DNA of 64,000 nucleotides from Nodosilinea sp. FACHB-131 (GTDB lineage: Bacteria; Cyanobacteriota; Cyanobacteriia; Phormidesmidales; Phormidesmidaceae). Shown here piece by piece: positions 5,562 through 41,054 of the stretch. Made by a program: the position numbers and the translations under genes. The stretch lies in contig NZ_JACJOF010000027.1 of assembly GCF_014695395.1 (NCBI RefSeq), forward strand, positions 558,001-622,000, written 5' to 3'. How positions within the stretch are numbered: position 1 is the first letter of the stretch; each line of letters starts with the position of its first letter. The notes under the pieces were generated by a model. The model saw only the letters and a list, made by a program, of their open reading frames with translations, did no database searches and had not been told where the DNA came from.

Positions 5562-6476
5562 ATGAATGCAGCTAAACCCGCTGATATCAGGGCTCGCCAC
5601 AACCAGCTAGTCACTGCTCAAACCGCGCTAGATTGCCTGCCGACGCTGTCGAGTCAAGCCTTGGGCTGGGAGCATATTCAGGTGGGGCAGTTTCAGCATC
5701 CGCCGGGGGAATGCCGCATCGCCTCGGACACGGAGCACATGGTCTGTCTGTCGTTGTCGGCCCGTCCAGTGCGATTTTTGCAGATTAAAGACGGCAAAAC
5801 CCATAGCAGCCTCTACGGTAAAGGCGATATTTCCCTTACTCCGGCTCAGACCGCGTTTTTTGCCCGTTGGCAGGACGACGACCACTACGTCGAGCTGCGG
5901 CTTAACTCTGGCTTTATGGCCACCGTCGCTCAAGAATCCCTGGGATTAAACCCCGATCGCATCGAGCTCATCCCCGAGTTTCGCCTACGGGATGGGCGGC
6001 TAGAGGCGATCGCCCTGATGCTGCTCGACGAACTCAACCAGGCCAACCCCGGCGGCAGGCTCTACGTCGAGTCGTTAACTAACCTGCTGGCGGTGCACTT
6101 GCTGCGGCAGTACGCCATAGCTAGACCACAATTGCCTATTCATCCCAGCGGTTTACTCCAGCGTCAGCTCTTGCCGGTGCTCGATCACATCCACGAAGCC
6201 TTGGATGCCGACCTAAAATTGGCTGATTTGGCGGCGATCGCAGGTCTCAGCCCCTTCCATTTCAGCCATCAGTTCAAGCAGGCGATGGGGGTTGCTCCCT
6301 ACCAGTACGTGCTGCAACAGCGAGTCGAGCGGGCCAAGCAGTTGTTGAAACAAACCAACCACTCTATTGTGGAAATCGCCCTGCTGTGTGGGTTCAACAG
6401 CCATAGCCACCTGAGCAAACAGTTTCGCCAGACCACCGGCACCACCCCCAGCGCCTACCGAGCGATCGTGCAGTGA
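5562..6476 (+). CDS. AraC-family transcriptional regulator
   Basis: About 304 residues from the ATG at 5562, which has a good AAGGTGGAG ribosome site 12 nt upstream; an in-frame TTG at 5520 would add 14 residues but lacks one. The C-terminal 100 residues carry two helix-turn-helix units: LKLADLAAIAGLSPFHFSHQFKQAMGVAPYQYVLQQRVERAKQLL, then HSIVEIALLCGFNSHSHLSKQFRQTTGTTPSAYR. The N-terminal 190 residues form a cupin-like sensing region of the type seen in XylS-like cyanobacterial regulators. The stop overlaps the GTG start of the next gene by 4 nt, so the glutaredoxin-like protein is translationally coupled to it. Confidence 0.93.
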   Translation: MNAAKPADIRARHNQLVTAQTALDCLPTLSSQALGWEHIQVGQFQHPPGECRIASDTEHMVCLSLSARPVRFLQIKDGKTHSSLYGKGDISLTPAQTAFFARWQDDDHYVELRLNSGFMATVAQESLGLNPDRIELIPEFRLRDGRLEAIALMLLDELNQANPGGRLYVESLTNLLAVHLLRQYAIARPQLPIHPSGLLQRQLLPVLDHIHEALDADLKLADLAAIAGLSPFHFSHQFKQAMGVAPYQYVLQQRVERAKQLLKQTNHSIVEIALLCGFNSHSHLSKQFRQTTGTTPSAYRAIVQ

Positions 6477-6787
6477 GCGTCCTTCCCGTGACTGACCCCG
6501 TGACCAAATTTGTGCTCTACAGCAAGCCCGGCTGCCACCTGTGCGAAGGGCTCGAAGAGAAACTCGTGGCCGCCGCCCACCTGCCCTTTGAGCTAGAGGT
6601 GCGCGACATCACCACTCGCGACGACTGGTTTCAGCGCTACCAGTACGAGATTCCGGTGCTGTGCCAAGTGATTCAGAAAGAATCGGGCCCCCAGGAAATT
6701 CCCCTGCCGCGCCTGTCGCCCCGGGCACCCCAGGCCAAGGTGGAGCAATTGATACAGACTTATATGGGCCAGAGTAAGGCAGAATAG
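6473..6787 (+). CDS. Glutaredoxin family protein (DUF836)
   Basis: A 104-residue thioredoxin-fold protein. Its KFVLYSKPGCHLCEGLEEKL motif carries the redox pair CxxC (C-H-L-C) near residues 21-24, and the cis-proline strand is YEIPVLCQVIQ near 58-68. This matches the small glutaredoxin-like DUF836 group rather than classic Grx, which has CPYC. The likely role is thiol-disulfide exchange in the cytosol; partner proteins are unknown. Translation starts at GTG, within the stop codon of the AraC gene (GTGA), and the gene is followed after 31 nt by murE. Confidence 0.88.
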   Translation: MSVLPVTDPVTKFVLYSKPGCHLCEGLEEKLVAAAHLPFELEVRDITTRDDWFQRYQYEIPVLCQVIQKESGPQEIPLPRLSPRAPQAKVEQLIQTYMGQSKAE

Positions 6788-6818: not shown

Positions 6819-8327
6819 ATGAAGCTGCGCCAACTGCTTGAGGACCTGCCTGCCGGGCTGATTGTACCCGGGTTCACCCTGGCTACAGAAGCGGAAGATG
6901 CTGAAATCAAGGGCCTGTGCACCAATTCCCACGCCTGTCAGCCGGGGGATGTGTTCATTGGCATGCCAGGCACCCGGGTCGATGGCGGTGAATTTTGGCC
7001 CAGTGCCGTGGAAGCGGGGGCCGCAGCGGCGTTAGTCTCCACCCAGGCGCTAGCGACCCGTCCTGCAGAGGACGATGCCTGCGTGGTGCCCATGACCGAT
7101 ATGTCGGTGGCCTGTGCCGAAGTGGCGGCGCGGTTCTACAACTACCCGGCCCGACAGATGGGGCTAGTGGGGGTCACGGGCACCAACGGCAAAACGACAA
7201 CCACCCACCTGATCGAGCATTTGTTAAATGCAGCGGAGCAGCCCACAGCACTGCTGGGAACGCTCTACACTCGCTGGCCCGGGCACCAGAAAACCGCTCT
7301 CTACACGACTCCCTTTGCGGTAGAACTCCAAGCGGAACTGGCAACCGCGCGGGATGCCGGCTGTCGCTACGCGGTATTAGAAGTTAGCTCCCACGCCCTG
7401 GCTCAAAAGCGAGTATGGGGCTGTCCCTTTGAGGTGGCGGTCTTCACCAACCTGACCCAGGACCACCTCGACTATCACCGCGACATGGAGGATTACTTCC
7501 AGGCCAAGGCGCTGCTGTTTAGCGAGGCCTATCTGGCGGGTCGTGCGGTAGTGAATATCGATACGCCCTACGGCGATCGCCTTGTCTCCCAACTCCCAGC
7601 AGACCGGGTGTGGACCTACAGCACCCAGAATCCTGACGCCGACCTCTATACCGGCGATCTCACTTACCAGGCTAACGGCGTCACCGGAACCCTGAAGACC
7701 CCAGTGGGTACCGTGCCCTTCAGCTCACCGCTGGTGGGGCAGTTTAACCTAGAGAATTTGCTGGCGGCGGTGGGTGCGGCCCTGCACCTGGGCGTTTCCC
7801 TAGAAACAATCGCCGCCGCCCTGCCGGGCTTTGGCGGCGTGCCGGGACGCATGGAGCAGGTGAAGATTTCTGAGGCCCAGGACATCAGCGTGATTGTGGA
7901 CTATGCTCACACGCCGGACAGTTTGAAGAGTTCTCTCACGGCGGCGCGGCCCTTTGTGCCGGGGCGGCTGATCTGCGTGTTTGGCTGCGGCGGCGATCGC
8001 GATCGCACCAAGCGCCCTCAGATGGGTCGCATTGCCTACGAGCTGGCCGATGTGGTGGTCGTCACCTCCGACAACCCCCGCACCGAAGACCCCGAGCAGA
8101 TTCTGCGCGATGTGGTGGCGGGCATTCCGGCAACGCTAGGGGCAGATCAGGTGGTGGGCGATCGCGCTACCGCGATTCAGTCCGCTATTTCTATGGCCCA
8201 GCCCGGCGACGGCATCTTGATTGCCGGCAAGGGGCACGAAGACTACCAGATTCTCGGCACCGAAAAAATCCACTTTGACGATCGCGAACAGGCGCGCCAT
8301 TCTCTCGAAAAACGGTATTCGGGCTAA
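6819..8327 (+). CDS. murE: UDP-MurNAc-tripeptide synthetase MurE
   Basis: A 502-residue Mur ligase that adds the third stem-peptide residue to UDP-MurNAc-L-Ala-D-Glu in the cytosol, using ATP. The N-terminal UDP-binding domain spans about residues 1-100. The ATP loop GTNGKTTTTHLIEHLL is at 121-136, followed by the central domain with EVSSHALAQKRVWG and the FTNLTQDHLDYH carbamoyl-Lys region. The C-terminal domain carries SDNPRTEDPEQI, where the DNPR sequence selects meso-diaminopimelate over lysine. The ribosome site GAGGAG lies 8-13 nt before the ATG. The length is normal. A hairpin with a T-run follows. Confidence 0.97.
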   Translation: MKLRQLLEDLPAGLIVPGFTLATEAEDAEIKGLCTNSHACQPGDVFIGMPGTRVDGGEFWPSAVEAGAAAALVSTQALATRPAEDDACVVPMTDMSVACAEVAARFYNYPARQMGLVGVTGTNGKTTTTHLIEHLLNAAEQPTALLGTLYTRWPGHQKTALYTTPFAVELQAELATARDAGCRYAVLEVSSHALAQKRVWGCPFEVAVFTNLTQDHLDYHRDMEDYFQAKALLFSEAYLAGRAVVNIDTPYGDRLVSQLPADRVWTYSTQNPDADLYTGDLTYQANGVTGTLKTPVGTVPFSSPLVGQFNLENLLAAVGAALHLGVSLETIAAALPGFGGVPGRMEQVKISEAQDISVIVDYAHTPDSLKSSLTAARPFVPGRLICVFGCGGDRDRTKRPQMGRIAYELADVVVVTSDNPRTEDPEQILRDVVAGIPATLGADQVVGDRATAIQSAISMAQPGDGILIAGKGHEDYQILGTEKIHFDDREQARHSLEKRYSG

Positions 8328-8471: not shown

Positions 8472-9977
8472 ATGCAGTCTTACCAAGAACAAGAGGTGTC
8501 GCTGCACCGGCTTCTACAGCTTACTGCGGCAGCCCCAGACTATGTCCAGGTAAAACCCAAGGGGTTCAAGGCAATTCTACAATCGACTGTAGAGTTCCTC
8601 GAAGCCCACGACATTCAGGCCCACCTGCTGGTCAAGCTGCCGGTGGGCGATCCCTGGAATGAGGATGTGCTGCGCTACGGCCAGGGGCTGGAGCTGCCCC
8701 ATCGGGTGCTGCGGTTTGCGCGCCCTGATGCAGAACCTTCGCCTAGCTTGGGCAACGAAATCGTGGTGCCTTTGCCGGAGAGCCACACCTGGCGAGGCGA
8801 CTACTTTGTGGTGGTGCAGTCTGAGTCCTTTGCGGCCATGCTGATTGCCCACCGGCTGCAGCCACTGTCGGCTACGCCCACAGCACAAAGTCAGCGACTG
8901 ACCGCGGATGACCAACGCGACCCAGAGGATGACGATGAGGCCTCGCCGCCCCTAGGAGAAGCGACGGCGGCGCGATCGTCGTATTTGTCAGTGTGCTGTT
9001 CCATTAATCCTGACCTGGTGGCGACCGTGGTAAGTGCCATTCGCCGCCAGATTGAGCAAGGGGTCACCGCCGATGCCGGGCTTGATCTGGCTGCCCTGAC
9101 CCAGCAGTGGCCCCAGCTACGGCCTACTCACTCACTCACCCCAACCTACCTGACCCTGGTCGATCGCTGGCTCAACTGGCAGCTCAAGCGCCAGGAACAC
9201 CTGCGCCAGTCGGCCTCGACCTACCGCCGACAGGCGTTAAACATGTCGAGCCTGTCATCTCAAAACGAGGTGTTGATCAATACCCTGCGCCTCAAGGATG
9301 ATTTTCTCAATACAGTGGGCCAGGAACTGCGCACTCCCCTCACCACCATCAAAACTGCCCTGACTCTGCTCGATTCGCCCCACCTCAAGCCTCCCCAGCG
9401 GCAGCGGTATATGGAGATGATCAGCCATGAGTGCGATCGCCAGAGTGCGCTGATTAGCGGCGTACTCAACCTGTTGCAGATGGAGACCAGCGTTAGCCAG
9501 GCTCAGCTCGACCCGCTAAATTTGTCGGAAACCGTGCCGCCGGTGGTCAGCACCTACCAGCCCCTGGCCGCAGAAAAGGGCGTGATGCTGGCCTACACCA
9601 TCCCTAGCCAGGTGCCGCCGGTGCTTTGCCCCGACAGCTGGCTGCGACAGGTGATGATTCACCTGCTGAATAACAGTCTGAAATACACCCCCAGCGGTGG
9701 CCAGGTCTGGGTAACGGCTTCTAGCACCACAGACTACGCCGAGATTGAAGTGCGCGATACCGGTGCCGGCATTTCGGCCAGCGATCTGCCCCACATTTTT
9801 GAGCACTTCTATCGAGGCCGCAACCTGCCCCCTGCTGAAACCGAAGGGGCCGGTCTAGGGTTATCGATTGTGCAGCAGCTCCTCTTGTACTGCGGCGGCA
9901 ATATAGTAGCTCGCAGCCAGCCCGGTGAAGGGACGACGATGGTGGTGCGGCTGCCCATTCACCACAGGCGACCCTAG
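8472..9977 (+). CDS. Histidine-kinase-like sensor lacking the phospho-histidine
   Basis: A 501-residue soluble protein. Residues 1-150 resemble the DICT sensory domain of cyanobacterial kinases (LHRLLQLTAAAPDYVQVKPKGFKAIL...). A linker and a helical region follow, then a HisKA-like dimerisation helix. The H-box reads VGQELRTPLTTIKTALTLL, so the usual His of SHELRTPL is Gln 284 (codon CAG at 9321-9323). The ATPase domain looks complete: N box HLLNNSLKYTPSGG, G1 DTGAGIS, F box FEHFYRG and G2 GAGLGLSI. It could bind ATP but not autophosphorylate at the canonical site. It may be a pseudokinase, a partner for another kinase, or a phosphatase-type sensor. No response regulator gene is adjacent. Confidence 0.88.
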   Translation: MQSYQEQEVSLHRLLQLTAAAPDYVQVKPKGFKAILQSTVEFLEAHDIQAHLLVKLPVGDPWNEDVLRYGQGLELPHRVLRFARPDAEPSPSLGNEIVVPLPESHTWRGDYFVVVQSESFAAMLIAHRLQPLSATPTAQSQRLTADDQRDPEDDDEASPPLGEATAARSSYLSVCCSINPDLVATVVSAIRRQIEQGVTADAGLDLAALTQQWPQLRPTHSLTPTYLTLVDRWLNWQLKRQEHLRQSASTYRRQALNMSSLSSQNEVLINTLRLKDDFLNTVGQELRTPLTTIKTALTLLDSPHLKPPQRQRYMEMISHECDRQSALISGVLNLLQMETSVSQAQLDPLNLSETVPPVVSTYQPLAAEKGVMLAYTIPSQVPPVLCPDSWLRQVMIHLLNNSLKYTPSGGQVWVTASSTTDYAEIEVRDTGAGISASDLPHIFEHFYRGRNLPPAETEGAGLGLSIVQQLLLYCGGNIVARSQPGEGTTMVVRLPIHHRRP

Positions 9978-36638: not shown

Positions 36639-37121
36639 TTAGGCCAATGAACCTGAGCCGCCGAGCTGGTCCATATCCATATCGAGCTGGGGCTTTTCGT
36701 TATAGGTAATCCAGTGCAAATTTAGGGTTGTGAGAATATCGACCAGCTGATCAAAATCTGCCGGTTTGACAATGTAGGCATTGGCCCCTAAATCATAGAT
36801 GTGATTGATATCAGCAAACTCCCTGGATGACGTCAGCACAACCACAGGTAAGCGGCGAAAATGGGGATGTTGCCGAATCCACGACAGCACCTCTGCCCCC
36901 GACCGGCGCGGCAGTTTGAGATCGAGCAGTACGAGCACAGGTAGCGGGTAAGCTGCGCGATCGCCGTAGGGGGCGTCTCCAGAGAGGTAACCTACGGCGG
37001 CATCGCCGTCACTCACCACCTGTAGCGGCGTGATGATTCCAGCCTTGCGAGCAGCCCGCTGCACCAGAAAAACATCCTTTGGATTATCCTCGACCAGGAG
37101 TATGGTGTGTTCCGTGTTCAT
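36639..37121 (-). CDS. Rcp1-like CheY-type response regulator
   Basis: A 160-residue single receiver domain from the ATG at 37121. The acidic pocket is E11-D12, the phospho-acceptor D67 lies in LVLLDLKLPRRSG, and the switch residues are T/S in VVLTSSRE and K in YIVKPADF. A short acidic tail follows. It resembles the small regulators paired with cyanobacterial phytochrome-type kinases. Its ATG overlaps the stop of the upstream kinase (ATGA), so it is the third gene of a coupled kinase-kinase-regulator operon. Confidence 0.94.
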   Translation of the reverse strand: MNTEHTILLVEDNPKDVFLVQRAARKAGIITPLQVVSDGDAAVGYLSGDAPYGDRAAYPLPVLVLLDLKLPRRSGAEVLSWIRQHPHFRRLPVVVLTSSREFADINHIYDLGANAYIVKPADFDQLVDILTTLNLHWITYNEKPQLDMDMDQLGGSGSLA

Positions 37122-38629
37122 CTCGCGACACCTTTGGCGCTCGGCAACTCCACCCAAAACCGGCTCCCTTGCCCCGGCTGAGATTCAACCCCCACCTGCC
37201 CTCCCATACGCTCCACTCCCTTGCGAACAATTGCTAGGCCAACCCCAGTACCTGGATATTCGGCCTCACCGTGCAGACGGGTAAAGGGGCTAAAAATTTC
37301 CTGCTGTCGATCTAGTTCAATACCTATCCCATTGTCTTCTACGTATAGTCGCACGGTAGAGGGTTCCCCGGCCCGCTCTTCAGCCCATACTCGCACCTGG
37401 GGCTGCACACCATCGGCGACAAATTTAATCGCGTTCGAGAGTAGGTTGATCACGACCTGCATGAGAATGAGGCGATTGGCCTGAACAATGGGTAACGGTT
37501 CGTCAATAGAAACGTGAGCCTGCTGGTGCTGAATGTTTGATTTGAGCTGGGTCACGACTTCGGCTAACACAGACGAGATGGTGACCGGCTCTAGCTGGAT
37601 CTCAGCGCGCCTTAAATGGCTATAGGTTAAGAGGTCAGTAATTAAAGTATTTAGGTGTTGGGCATTGGCCCCAATGCGCTGCAAAATTTCTAAAGAATTG
37701 GCGTCCAGCGTTTCACTCAGGTCTTCTCGCAAAATTTGAGCAAACCCCTGAATGGCTCGCAGGGGAGCCTGTAGATCGTGGGAAATAGAATATGTAAACT
37801 CCTCAAGATCTTGATTCACCGCTTCCAGCTCGGCAGTGCGTTCCTGCACTCGGGTTTCTAAGGTGGCATTGAGTTCCTGAAGGGCCACTTCGGCTTGTTT
37901 GCGGCTGGTAATGTCTTCGAGCAGCCCATCGACAACAGTAATCCCTTCAACGGTGTTTAGGGTGGTGGTCAACAGCGCCCAAAACTGGGTACCATCGCTT
38001 TTTTGCAGGTTCACCTCTCGCTCTTGCTGCTGGGGTGACGATTCATCCATTAGCTGCCTGTAGCAGTCGCGCATATCGAGCCAGTCTGCGGCATTGACTT
38101 GAGCCGGAGACTGTGCGCCCAGTAGCTCTAGAAAAGCGCGGTTTGCTTCAATCAATGTGCCGTCTGCATCAAACCTAAAAATGCCGATCTTGACCTGATT
38201 TAGCAACCGCTGCAAGCGAATTTCTACTAGAGCTGCCTGTTGCTGCCTTTCCCGTCGCTCTAGGGCAATCCGCACGGCGATGGGTACACGAATGTAGCGA
38301 TTTGGCTCTTTGATGATGTAGTCATCGAGGCCTAGCTTCATGGCTTCGACGGCGACTTCCTCGGTGCCCGTGTTGGTAAACATCACCACTGGGCAGTTGG
38401 GATACCGCTGTTTCACCATTTCTAAAATGTCTAGCCCGGTCGTCCAGCGCAACTGGAAGTCAGTGATCACAGCAGCAAAGTCACCGATCGCGATCGCCCG
38501 ATTTAATTCCCCAGAACTGGTGATTTCTTGAACATCTAGCGCATCAAATTCCCGCTGCAATTCCCGTAGAACCAGGGCGCGATCGCTGCGGTTGTCATCG
38601 ATCAGAAGAATGCGGAGGGGTGAGGTCAT
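37118..38629 (-). CDS. Receiver-PAS-histidine kinase
   Basis: A 503-residue cytosolic hybrid protein. Residues 1-125 form a receiver domain (ILLIDDN, phospho-site D57 in AVITDFQLRWTTG, and an IIKEP lysine). A PAS domain follows (about 140-255, KIGIFRFDADGTLIEANRAFLELLG) and a coiled coil. The kinase core has the phospho-His near 285 in SISHDLQAPLRAIQGFAQ, then N box NLLSNAIKFV, G1 VEDNGIGI, F FTRLHG and G2 GTGVGLAIVRKGVERMGG. These are phytochrome-kinase-like features. The start lies inside the end of the upstream kinase gene. Confidence 0.95.
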   Translation of the reverse strand: MTSPLRILLIDDNRSDRALVLRELQREFDALDVQEITSSGELNRAIAIGDFAAVITDFQLRWTTGLDILEMVKQRYPNCPVVMFTNTGTEEVAVEAMKLGLDDYIIKEPNRYIRVPIAVRIALERRERQQQAALVEIRLQRLLNQVKIGIFRFDADGTLIEANRAFLELLGAQSPAQVNAADWLDMRDCYRQLMDESSPQQQEREVNLQKSDGTQFWALLTTTLNTVEGITVVDGLLEDITSRKQAEVALQELNATLETRVQERTAELEAVNQDLEEFTYSISHDLQAPLRAIQGFAQILREDLSETLDANSLEILQRIGANAQHLNTLITDLLTYSHLRRAEIQLEPVTISSVLAEVVTQLKSNIQHQQAHVSIDEPLPIVQANRLILMQVVINLLSNAIKFVADGVQPQVRVWAEERAGEPSTVRLYVEDNGIGIELDRQQEIFSPFTRLHGEAEYPGTGVGLAIVRKGVERMGGQVGVESQPGQGSRFWVELPSAKGVAR

Positions 38630-41054
38630 GGGTTTCTTCGTTCAGAGCGAGAACAACACCGGGCAGTGCAATCCAAAACCGGCTCCCATGACCCAGTTGC
38701 GATTCCACTCCGGCTTGTCCACCCATCCGCTCTAGCCCTTTGCGCACAATGGCTAACCCAATGCCTGTACCAGGGTAGCTTTCGGCACCGTGCAGGCGTT
38801 CAAAGACGCGGAATATGCGCTCCTGGTGTTCAGGGCCAATGCCGATACCGTTGTCTACAATCCACAACCGTATCCAGCGGACATCATCTTGATACGTTTC
38901 TTCGGCAAAAATATCTATCTGGGGTTGGGTAGTGGGTGCCACAAACTTGATCGCGTTGCCGACTAGGTTAATGACGGCTTGAATCAGGGTTGAACGATGG
39001 GCCATAACTGAGGGCAAGGCCGCCGCAACGTTAATCTGAGCCTGCTTTTCCTCCATTTGAGCCGTTGACTGCTTCAAAGCTTCCTCTACGACTTCATTTA
39101 AATTGGTGGGCTGTAGATTGATTTGCGTACGCGTTAGGCGACTGTAGTCTAGCAAGTCACTGATCAGCCCATTCATCTGCACCGCATCGTCAATGATGGA
39201 GTCAACGTAGCTTTTGCAAAAATCTTCGATCTGGTCGCCACAGTCTTCTAACAGCGCTTGGGCAAAACCCTGCATAGTGCGCAGCGGTGCCCGCAGATCA
39301 TGGGAGACCGAATAGGTAAAGGCCTCTAGTTCCTGGTTGGTTTCGGCCAGTTGGGCGGTACGTTCTCTAACGCGCTGCTCTAGGGTGTCATTTAGTTGTT
39401 GGAGGGCGTCTTCGGCCTGCTTGCGATCGCTGATGTCTTCTACAACAGCAATGAAGTAATCGGGCTCTCTGGTGGGTTTTCGCACTAGAGATACCGTCAA
39501 GTTAATCCAGACCAGGGAATGGTCTTTGCGGATATAGCGTTTCTCCATGGAGTAGGTTTGAATCTCGTCGGCCAACATCTGGTGAAAGTAAGCAACATCA
39601 ATATCCAAGTCCTCTGCATAGGTGATGTCTTGAAACGTGCGTTGCAGCAATTCATCACGGGTATAGCCAACAATCTGACATAGCTTTTGATTGACCCGCA
39701 GCCAGCGACCGTCTGAGTTGACATGGGCAATGCCAACGGCGGCTTGGTTAAACGTAGAGCGAAACAACTGCTCCTGCTCGCGTAGCTCCGTCTCGGCCTG
39801 CAATCGCTCCTGGAGTTCGTGCTGGAGCTGTTGATTGGTAGCCTGAAGCCGCCAGCGCAGGCGAGACTGTTGCAGCGCGATCGCCAGCTGATTGGCTACC
39901 TCAATGACAATTTCCTGGGCTTCTTCATTAAAGGCCGCAGGTTCCACCGATGACAGGTTGAGTTCTCCGACTAGGGTGTTGTTTACCAGTAGGGGCACAC
40001 ACAGACAGCTCAAAAAGCCGTGCGATCGCAATCGCACCAGTACAGGTGGACAAGAATCGGCGGTGGGCAGGTTTTGAATGTAGCGAACCCCGTGCAGCAG
40101 GCTCTGTTCTGGGGCAAAGTCAGCCATGGCTAAACGGGTGCCCACAGGCATCGTCAGGTCCCCAGTCTGCCTAATTCCGGCTAGTACTTGCGCGGTTTCA
40201 GCTTCTAAATCGAATACGGCCACCAGCGCTTCTTGGTAGGGAACAACTTGACCCATTTGAATGAGGGCATTGTCAATCAGAGGTTTGTCCAGCTCCGTGG
40301 CCAAAATCGCTCGGTCGATGTCATGCAGAGCTGCCAGTCGCTGGGCGCTGCGCTGGAGTGAAATAGCCGATTGTTCGGATTCCTGGGTGCGGGCTTGGGC
40401 GGTTTGCAAGGCCCCTTCATAAACCCGCGATACCTGTAAAATTTGGCGATAGATAAAATAGGCCAGAACAACCCCGATGCCGATGGCCAAAAGCCCACTG
40501 GTCACAATTACCGATTGAGTCGCGGCTTGAGCCCTCTGGCTACGCTGATCTCGTAGTTGCTCCTCTGTGGCCACAAAAGTCGCGATCTGCTGTCGCATCT
40601 GATCCACAAGCTGTTTTCGGCCTCTAAGGTCGCTCAAAGATTCCAGTTCGCCCCGTTGCCTGCGGGCAATGGCCGGTAAAACCTGTTGTTCCCACTGCTG
40701 AAATGCGGCCGTCAGCTCAACAATGCGTTGGGCCTGACTTGGATTGTCTGCAACCAGAGTTTTCAACTCCTCCAAGCTAGGTTCAATCAGCGCATCGGCT
40801 TGCTCGTAGGGTTCCAAAAACTCAGGCTCTCCGGTCAGCAGGTAGCCGCGAAAGCCAGTCTCCATATCCAGCACCAGCTTTTGAGCTGAGTTGGCCTGCG
40901 CAATCACCTGCCCTGTGCGGTCTACCGACTCTAGGGCAGACAACAATCGAGTGATTTGCCAGATGGAGATCCCCGACAGCAGCAGCGGTAGGACAACGGG
41001 TAGGGCGATCGCAAGGGTTAGCCGCTGGCGAAAACGGATGTGGGGAATGGCCAA
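38595..41054 (-). CDS. CHASE3-GAF-PAS sensor histidine kinase
   Basis: An 819-residue membrane-bound sensor. A first membrane helix (residues 12-33) precedes a CHASE3 extracytoplasmic domain (VLDMETGFRGYLLTGEPEFLEPYEQA). A second helix (about 183-203, IVTSGLLAIGIGVVLAYFI), a GAF domain (about 240-400), a PAS/PAC domain (about 430-550, GIAHVNSDGRWLRVNQKLCQIVGYT) and the kinase follow. The phospho-His is near 586 in SVSHDLRAPLRTMQGFAQALLED, and the ATPase boxes NLVGNAIKFV, IVDNGIGIG and GTGIGLAIVRKGLERMGG are intact. It overlaps the next kinase gene by 35 nt. The signal is unknown. Confidence 0.95.
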   Translation of the reverse strand: MAIPHIRFRQRLTLAIALPVVLPLLLSGISIWQITRLLSALESVDRTGQVIAQANSAQKLVLDMETGFRGYLLTGEPEFLEPYEQADALIEPSLEELKTLVADNPSQAQRIVELTAAFQQWEQQVLPAIARRQRGELESLSDLRGRKQLVDQMRQQIATFVATEEQLRDQRSQRAQAATQSVIVTSGLLAIGIGVVLAYFIYRQILQVSRVYEGALQTAQARTQESEQSAISLQRSAQRLAALHDIDRAILATELDKPLIDNALIQMGQVVPYQEALVAVFDLEAETAQVLAGIRQTGDLTMPVGTRLAMADFAPEQSLLHGVRYIQNLPTADSCPPVLVRLRSHGFLSCLCVPLLVNNTLVGELNLSSVEPAAFNEEAQEIVIEVANQLAIALQQSRLRWRLQATNQQLQHELQERLQAETELREQEQLFRSTFNQAAVGIAHVNSDGRWLRVNQKLCQIVGYTRDELLQRTFQDITYAEDLDIDVAYFHQMLADEIQTYSMEKRYIRKDHSLVWINLTVSLVRKPTREPDYFIAVVEDISDRKQAEDALQQLNDTLEQRVRERTAQLAETNQELEAFTYSVSHDLRAPLRTMQGFAQALLEDCGDQIEDFCKSYVDSIIDDAVQMNGLISDLLDYSRLTRTQINLQPTNLNEVVEEALKQSTAQMEEKQAQINVAAALPSVMAHRSTLIQAVINLVGNAIKFVAPTTQPQIDIFAEETYQDDVRWIRLWIVDNGIGIGPEHQERIFRVFERLHGAESYPGTGIGLAIVRKGLERMGGQAGVESQLGHGSRFWIALPGVVLALNEETHDLTPPHSSDR

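Follow-up and report, generated by a model that had tools for sequence, protein, structure and literature searches.

The 501-residue product of a gene in Nodosilinea sp. FACHB-131 carries Gln at the site where a histidine kinase carries its phosphoacceptor His, and belongs to a cyanobacterial family whose members are very probably pseudo-histidine kinases. Judged from the aligned sequences, Gln at this site is an old, selected trait of the family rather than a peculiarity of a single strain. The gene was studied in a stretch of 64,000 nucleotides, referred to here as the window. The features of the gene and its product are as follows.

8472..9977, + strand: gene of the putative DICT pseudo-histidine kinase, an open reading frame of 501 aa
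8496..8855, + strand: DICT sensory domain, residues 9-128 (PF10069, 51.2 bits against a cut-off of 23.8)
9294..9485, + strand: HisKA/DHp domain, residues 275-338 (PF00512, 42.9 bits)
9321..9323, + strand: codon CAG of Gln284, the residue in the phosphoacceptor position, within LKDDFLNTVGQELRTPL
9333..9335, + strand: Thr288 (position +4), where the phosphatase motif of HisKA proteins has its catalytic residue according to PMC3510030 and PMC5727384
9432..9434, + strand: Cys321 in DHp helix 2, a conserved cysteine (121 of the 125 distinct proteins that could be read at this position)
9639..9959, + strand: HATPase_c/CA domain, residues 390-496 (PF02518, 93 bits)

The Pfam scores of the DICT, HisKA and HATPase_c domains all exceeded their cut-offs, and DICT was found in place of a PAS domain, for which the protein gave no Pfam match at E<=0.01. 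When the protein was compared with a canonical HisKA kinase, the HATPase_c domain with its N, G1 and G2 residues was present, and the phosphoacceptor His of the H-box was replaced by Gln284. All residues that we take to be those of the N, G1, F and G2 boxes were found. The protein is probably soluble. Over the 106 rows of the family set, the mean identity was 73% for DHp, 69% for CA and 47% for the DICT domain. A short segment between DHp and CA, residues 360-370 (STYQPLAAEKG; window 9549-9581), was unusually conserved, with Y362, A366 and E368 each present in 104/104 rows of the family alignment; this segment is perhaps a family-specific contact surface.

The preliminary description of this gene had read Gln284 in place of the phospho-His and had proposed aligning homologues at that residue, with His in all close orthologues as the outcome that would speak against it. 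The alignment confirmed the reading. Relatives were fetched via peptide patterns that omitted the H-box; 39 loci matched in all, of which 22 were other kinases that matched over the kinase part only. The remaining 17 loci (L004-L020), which come from other assemblies and range from 96 to 40% identity, carried Gln at the site in every case. Because all 17 relatives share the residue, chance or a sequencing error at Gln284 is extremely improbable. The host genome encodes 96 HisKA domains, and 94 of them have His at the site; the two with Gln include the 501-residue protein. Among 35 outgroup kinases, 33 showed His and two a gap.

The site was then read across the family. Of the 178 genomes with a family member, 123 were read at this residue: 111 had Gln, 9 Arg, 2 His and 1 Glu. 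The first 103 of these genomes comprised the 30 best-scoring loci, 17 weak ones and others hand-picked for family spread, and 20 were added later. When the named assemblies were included and each distinct protein was counted once, 125 members could be read at the site, of which 113 had Gln, 9 Arg, 2 His and 1 Glu; one further protein, a row of the 106-row set, is a fragment that lacks the site and corresponds to the latter half of L020, a split gene. This family gene (L020/L131, Leptolyngbya sp. SIOISBB) is divided into two open frames. The two His proteins, L078 (G398) and L118 (G167), are single tips beside Gln sisters; they are natural reversions to His and could be active kinases. Arg was found in L132, L142, L145-L147, L153 and L155-L157, which belong to families f6 and f21.

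Family membership was defined as more than 200 bits to profile A1 together with the domain order DICT-HisKA-HATPase. The 501-residue protein scored 776.7 bits and has this order, which was also seen in L078, L177 and L171. Profile A1 was built from ten members and searched over 388 cyanobacterial-class genomes at a threshold of E<=1e-60; it was made from Gln rows only, which could disfavour His members only slightly. Matches were found in 178 of the 388 genomes, across many cyanobacterial families, with four candidates scored per genome, one match in 177 of the genomes and two in G594. In 27 chosen genomes up to 57 candidates were scored, and 17 of these genomes had one member each and 10 had none; the lowest-scoring member reached 230 bits and the best other kinase 184. 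A peptide pattern search gave matches in 8 of 386 genomes. The match in G125 (L044) corresponded to no such open frame and was taken as chance, and the family member of that genome lies elsewhere (L114). In FastTree analyses the family formed one clade containing 103/103 rows, with a support of 0.47 when 35 mixed outgroups were included and of 0.90 with cyanobacterial outgroups only. No account of the family was found in the open-licence literature among the matches listed, as judged by title and the start of the abstract.

The history of codon 284 was reconstructed by parsimony on the tree of 103 family rows, which does not include the 20 later additions. The two Gln codons were about equally common at the site (CAG 48, CAA 43). 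The changes comprised 24 silent CAA/CAG exchanges, two to His, two to Arg and one to Glu. Third-base changes that left A or G numbered 310 over 21 fourfold columns, and 188 of them (61%) went to C or T; according to this share, about 16 of 26 changes at codon 284 would be expected to give His, and two were seen (binomial P 2.4e-8, a guide only, because parsimony counts too few of the repeated changes and the tips share ancestry). Thus, the 24 silent changes against two to His, despite third-base changes that favour C or T, indicate that selection keeps Gln284. Other highly conserved Gln columns showed the same behaviour. On this codon record, selection is acting against His at the site.

The residues of the ATP site were complete. 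N401, D429, G431, G433, G459, G461 and G463 were present in 124/124 distinct proteins covering them (two of 126 do not cover them). Hence, the intact ATP-binding boxes of the preliminary description were borne out at residue level, with 93 bits for HATPase_c, and so was its DICT domain, with 51 bits in Pfam. Its view that the protein is a pseudokinase whose ATP-binding domain is intact is supported by the sequence comparison; the link to murE given below and the selection across the family had been missed. An AF2 model of residues 260-501 had a mean pLDDT of 87.2 and a pTM of 0.79, and its DHp formed two long helices. The fold matches of this model included the integrative model 9a5d of WalK (Z 25.4, 237 aligned, rmsd 3.5), the WalK/YycG crystal structure 4zki (Z 25.1, 226 aligned, rmsd 3.1), the complex of HK853 with RR468 in 6rgy (Z 23.8, 227 aligned, rmsd 7.0) and DivL 4q20 (Z 23.6, 224 aligned, rmsd 4.6), the last being the sixth row by fold, where rows within 1 Z are tied. 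Such likeness to known kinases is a likeness of fold and shows no function. A full-length AF2 model based on 17 close rows was of low quality (pLDDT 59.8, pTM 0.39), and for this reason no claim is made on the DICT fold.

The neighbourhood of the gene was compared over 77 loci, that is, the window, 16 loci of the close-relative set and 60 others. Two genes upstream in the window are of interest.

6488..6787, + strand: glutaredoxin-like protein with a CxxC motif, its start assigned by analogy with the GTG of relatives
6819..8327, + strand: murE (TIGR01085, 550 bits), upstream of the kinase-like gene with a gap of 144 bases

The glutaredoxin-like gene matched PF05768 with 73 bits on the open frame 6407-6787, and an EamA transporter gene lies downstream of the DICT gene. 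murE was found near the family gene in 42 of the 77 loci, always on the same strand (42/42), and the glutaredoxin-like gene accompanied it in 39 of the 77. Outside the close-relative set the linkage occurred in 26 of 60 loci (family handles f1, f3, f5, f7, f8, f15 and f44), and L177 (f56) and L178 (f55) showed the gene order of the window. In 38 of the 42 loci the gap from murE to the family gene, stop codon included, measured 65 to 400 bases, and it reached up to 1024 in the rest; with a range of 65 to 1024 bases, a single transcript is not proven. In 12 loci a PAPS-reductase-like gene cluster adjoins the murE unit, and the one member checked matched PF01507. Neither murE nor the glutaredoxin-like gene was seen within the flank in 35 of the 77 loci. 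The stretches read around the four Arg-type members L171-L174, of which two are short contigs, showed no murE either. No response regulator was a constant neighbour; one recurring cluster, with response regulators recognized by eye, was present in 5 of the 77 loci. The Arg-type member of G014 was considered as a candidate for slr0533 (Hik10) of Synechocystis, which we take to lie near murE. This identity was dropped because the 20 kb read at the G014 member showed no murE and because a figure legend of the review PMC3264485 lists Hik10 among kinases with transmembrane domains.

The linkage with murE and the glutaredoxin-like gene suggests that the output may bear on cell-wall precursor supply or on the redox/sulfur state. 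Besides Cys321, two other cysteines were conserved, namely C386 (91/104 rows) and C474 (86/104 rows). The preliminary description had suggested light or redox sensing. With these three residues and the glutaredoxin-like neighbour, redox sensing by the protein is at most a fair guess, and none of the findings points to light.

The phosphatase motif of HisKA proteins is E/DxxT/N (PMC5727384), and residues of this kind follow the acceptor site of the 501-residue protein as E285 and T288. In Gln proteins the +4 residue was Thr in 101/113 and Asn in 2/113 (103/113 together) and was neither in 10/113, whereas Thr was present in two of the nine Arg proteins and missing from the other seven; the proteins counted are related, and hence these figures are not an independent test. 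It is as if the Arg lineages had given up the phosphatase motif along with Gln, to go by these residues. E285 was kept in 100 of 105 family proteins. CrdS offers an experimental parallel. According to PMC3510030, replacing its His with Ala left most of the phosphatase activity, the half-life of the regulator being 2.6 min with the mutant, 0.7 with the wild type and 53.5 without CrdS, and N375A abolished the activity, while E372 was needed for kinase activity only. The same source reports that the phosphatase activity of PleC requires its His. The H371A form of CrdS resembles the DICT family in having a non-phosphorylatable site with the +1 Glu and the +4 T/N kept; it differs in being a laboratory mutant, whereas the state of the family is natural and conserved.

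In the proposed mechanism, the protein would dimerise through its DHp helices and bind ATP, and ATP and the DICT signal together would set its shape. It would be unable to place phosphate on itself. It would dock onto a response regulator phosphorylated by another kinase or by acetyl phosphate and would remove the phosphate through E285/T288; in lineages without T288 it would only bind and hold the regulator. Not every member can serve as a phosphatase, because ten of 113 Gln proteins lack T or N at +4 and seven of nine Arg proteins lack the Thr. On sequence grounds, the chances are judged to be about even that the protein, unable to phosphorylate itself, is an ATP-gated phosphatase or receptor for a response regulator. 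Counted for this reading are the prevalence of Gln and its codon record, the complete ATP-site residues, the +4 T/N of most Gln proteins, the CrdS parallel, the better conservation of DHp and CA than of DICT, the fold matches and the murE linkage. Counted against it are the T/N losses, the retention of E285, the need of PleC for His, the loci without murE and the absence of a constant regulator neighbour. A broader proposal would make the family an ancient branch, kept non-autophosphorylating, whose ATP-gated phosphatase or receptor couples the glutaredoxin/thiol state to peptidoglycan precursor synthesis as one unit with murE; this proposal is rather unlikely to hold.

An allosteric adaptor like DivL, in which the DHp-CA core would sense a phosphorylated regulator or pair with a canonical kinase and alter its activity, with no phosphatase action of its own, is possible, with the chances somewhat against it. 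DivL, with Tyr at the site, is described in PMC4211667 as having neither kinase nor phosphatase activity and as binding DivK~P. Moreover, DivL 4q20 was the seventh PDB sequence match as well as the sixth fold row, and the +4 Thr was lost from most Arg members (7/9), as would suit an adaptor. Against this, DivL binds ATP weakly according to PMC4211667, whereas the DICT family keeps every ATP-site residue read (a comparison of residues only), and T or N of the phosphatase motif is retained in most Gln members (103/113).

It is improbable that the protein is still a kinase, with the phosphate going to another residue in cis or with its CA domain phosphorylating a His-bearing partner in a heterodimer. 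The intact CA residues, the kinase-only residue E285 and the regain of His by two members would fit such a role, and the conservation of E285 may be a sign that some kinase-like chemistry remains. However, no well-conserved His was found in the transmitter over 106 rows (position 319 in 25, 397 in 38 and 400 in 49), and therefore a substitute acceptor in cis is unlikely; His127, in the DICT domain, was present in 66 of 106 rows. The selection against His at the site also argues against a kinase. A decaying relic or a sequencing error, to which the lost phosphoacceptor His, the further eroded look of the Arg lineages and the relative split into two frames (L020/L131) might point, is extremely improbable in view of Gln in all 17 close relatives from other assemblies, the invariant catalytic columns, the spread over many cyanobacterial families and the purifying selection on codon 284, which is the opposite of free drift.

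Three further genes with HisKA domains were noted. The second Gln-type HisKA protein of the host genome is encoded outside the window at L275:3824-5242 (-) on G000:C31; it is a GAF-HisKA protein with no HATPase_c match in Pfam, and its gene adjoins a same-strand response regulator gene (Response_reg and Trans_reg_C). It was matched in 28 of 59 class genomes, and the 25 loci read had Q in 21, H in 3 and R in 1. Within the window, a REC-PAS-HisKA-HATPase kinase gene (37118-38629, -) overlaps a CHASE3-GAF-PAS-HisKA-HATPase kinase gene (38595-41054, -), both with His at the site.

In both sequence and fold, the DHp-CA part was matched best by HisKA kinases of the WalK/VicK and PhoR/PnpS type. These kinases carry a phospho-His. 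All 25 listed of 79 NCBIfam matches were far under the curated cut-offs. Few pseudo-histidine kinases have, to our knowledge, a worked-out role. ChrS of Corynebacterium is reportedly a pseudokinase variant of a histidine kinase, and RocA is reported as a further pseudo-histidine kinase. Going by its title, the report on ChrS (PMC9491836) concerns one kinase in one species, whereas the DICT family is wide. DivL of Caulobacter is similar to the family in that its HisKA-HATPase core carries a residue other than His at the site. It differs in having Tyr there, which none of the 125 distinct family proteins has (all show Q, R, H or E), and in having PAS sensors in place of DICT; orthology is not established. 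As far as their residues and domains indicate, the family proteins are to be seen as working like the known pseudo-histidine kinases, above all DivL, yet they lack the Tyr and PAS that define DivL.

A His that is counter-selected beside complete ATP-site residues, in many cyanobacterial families, would mean that loss of autophosphorylation can be a purpose and not decay. In the DICT family, nature provides a test of whether the role of phosphatase or receptor alone is enough for a HisKA protein to persist. Furthermore, annotation and network models that count its members as kinases may give the wrong sign.
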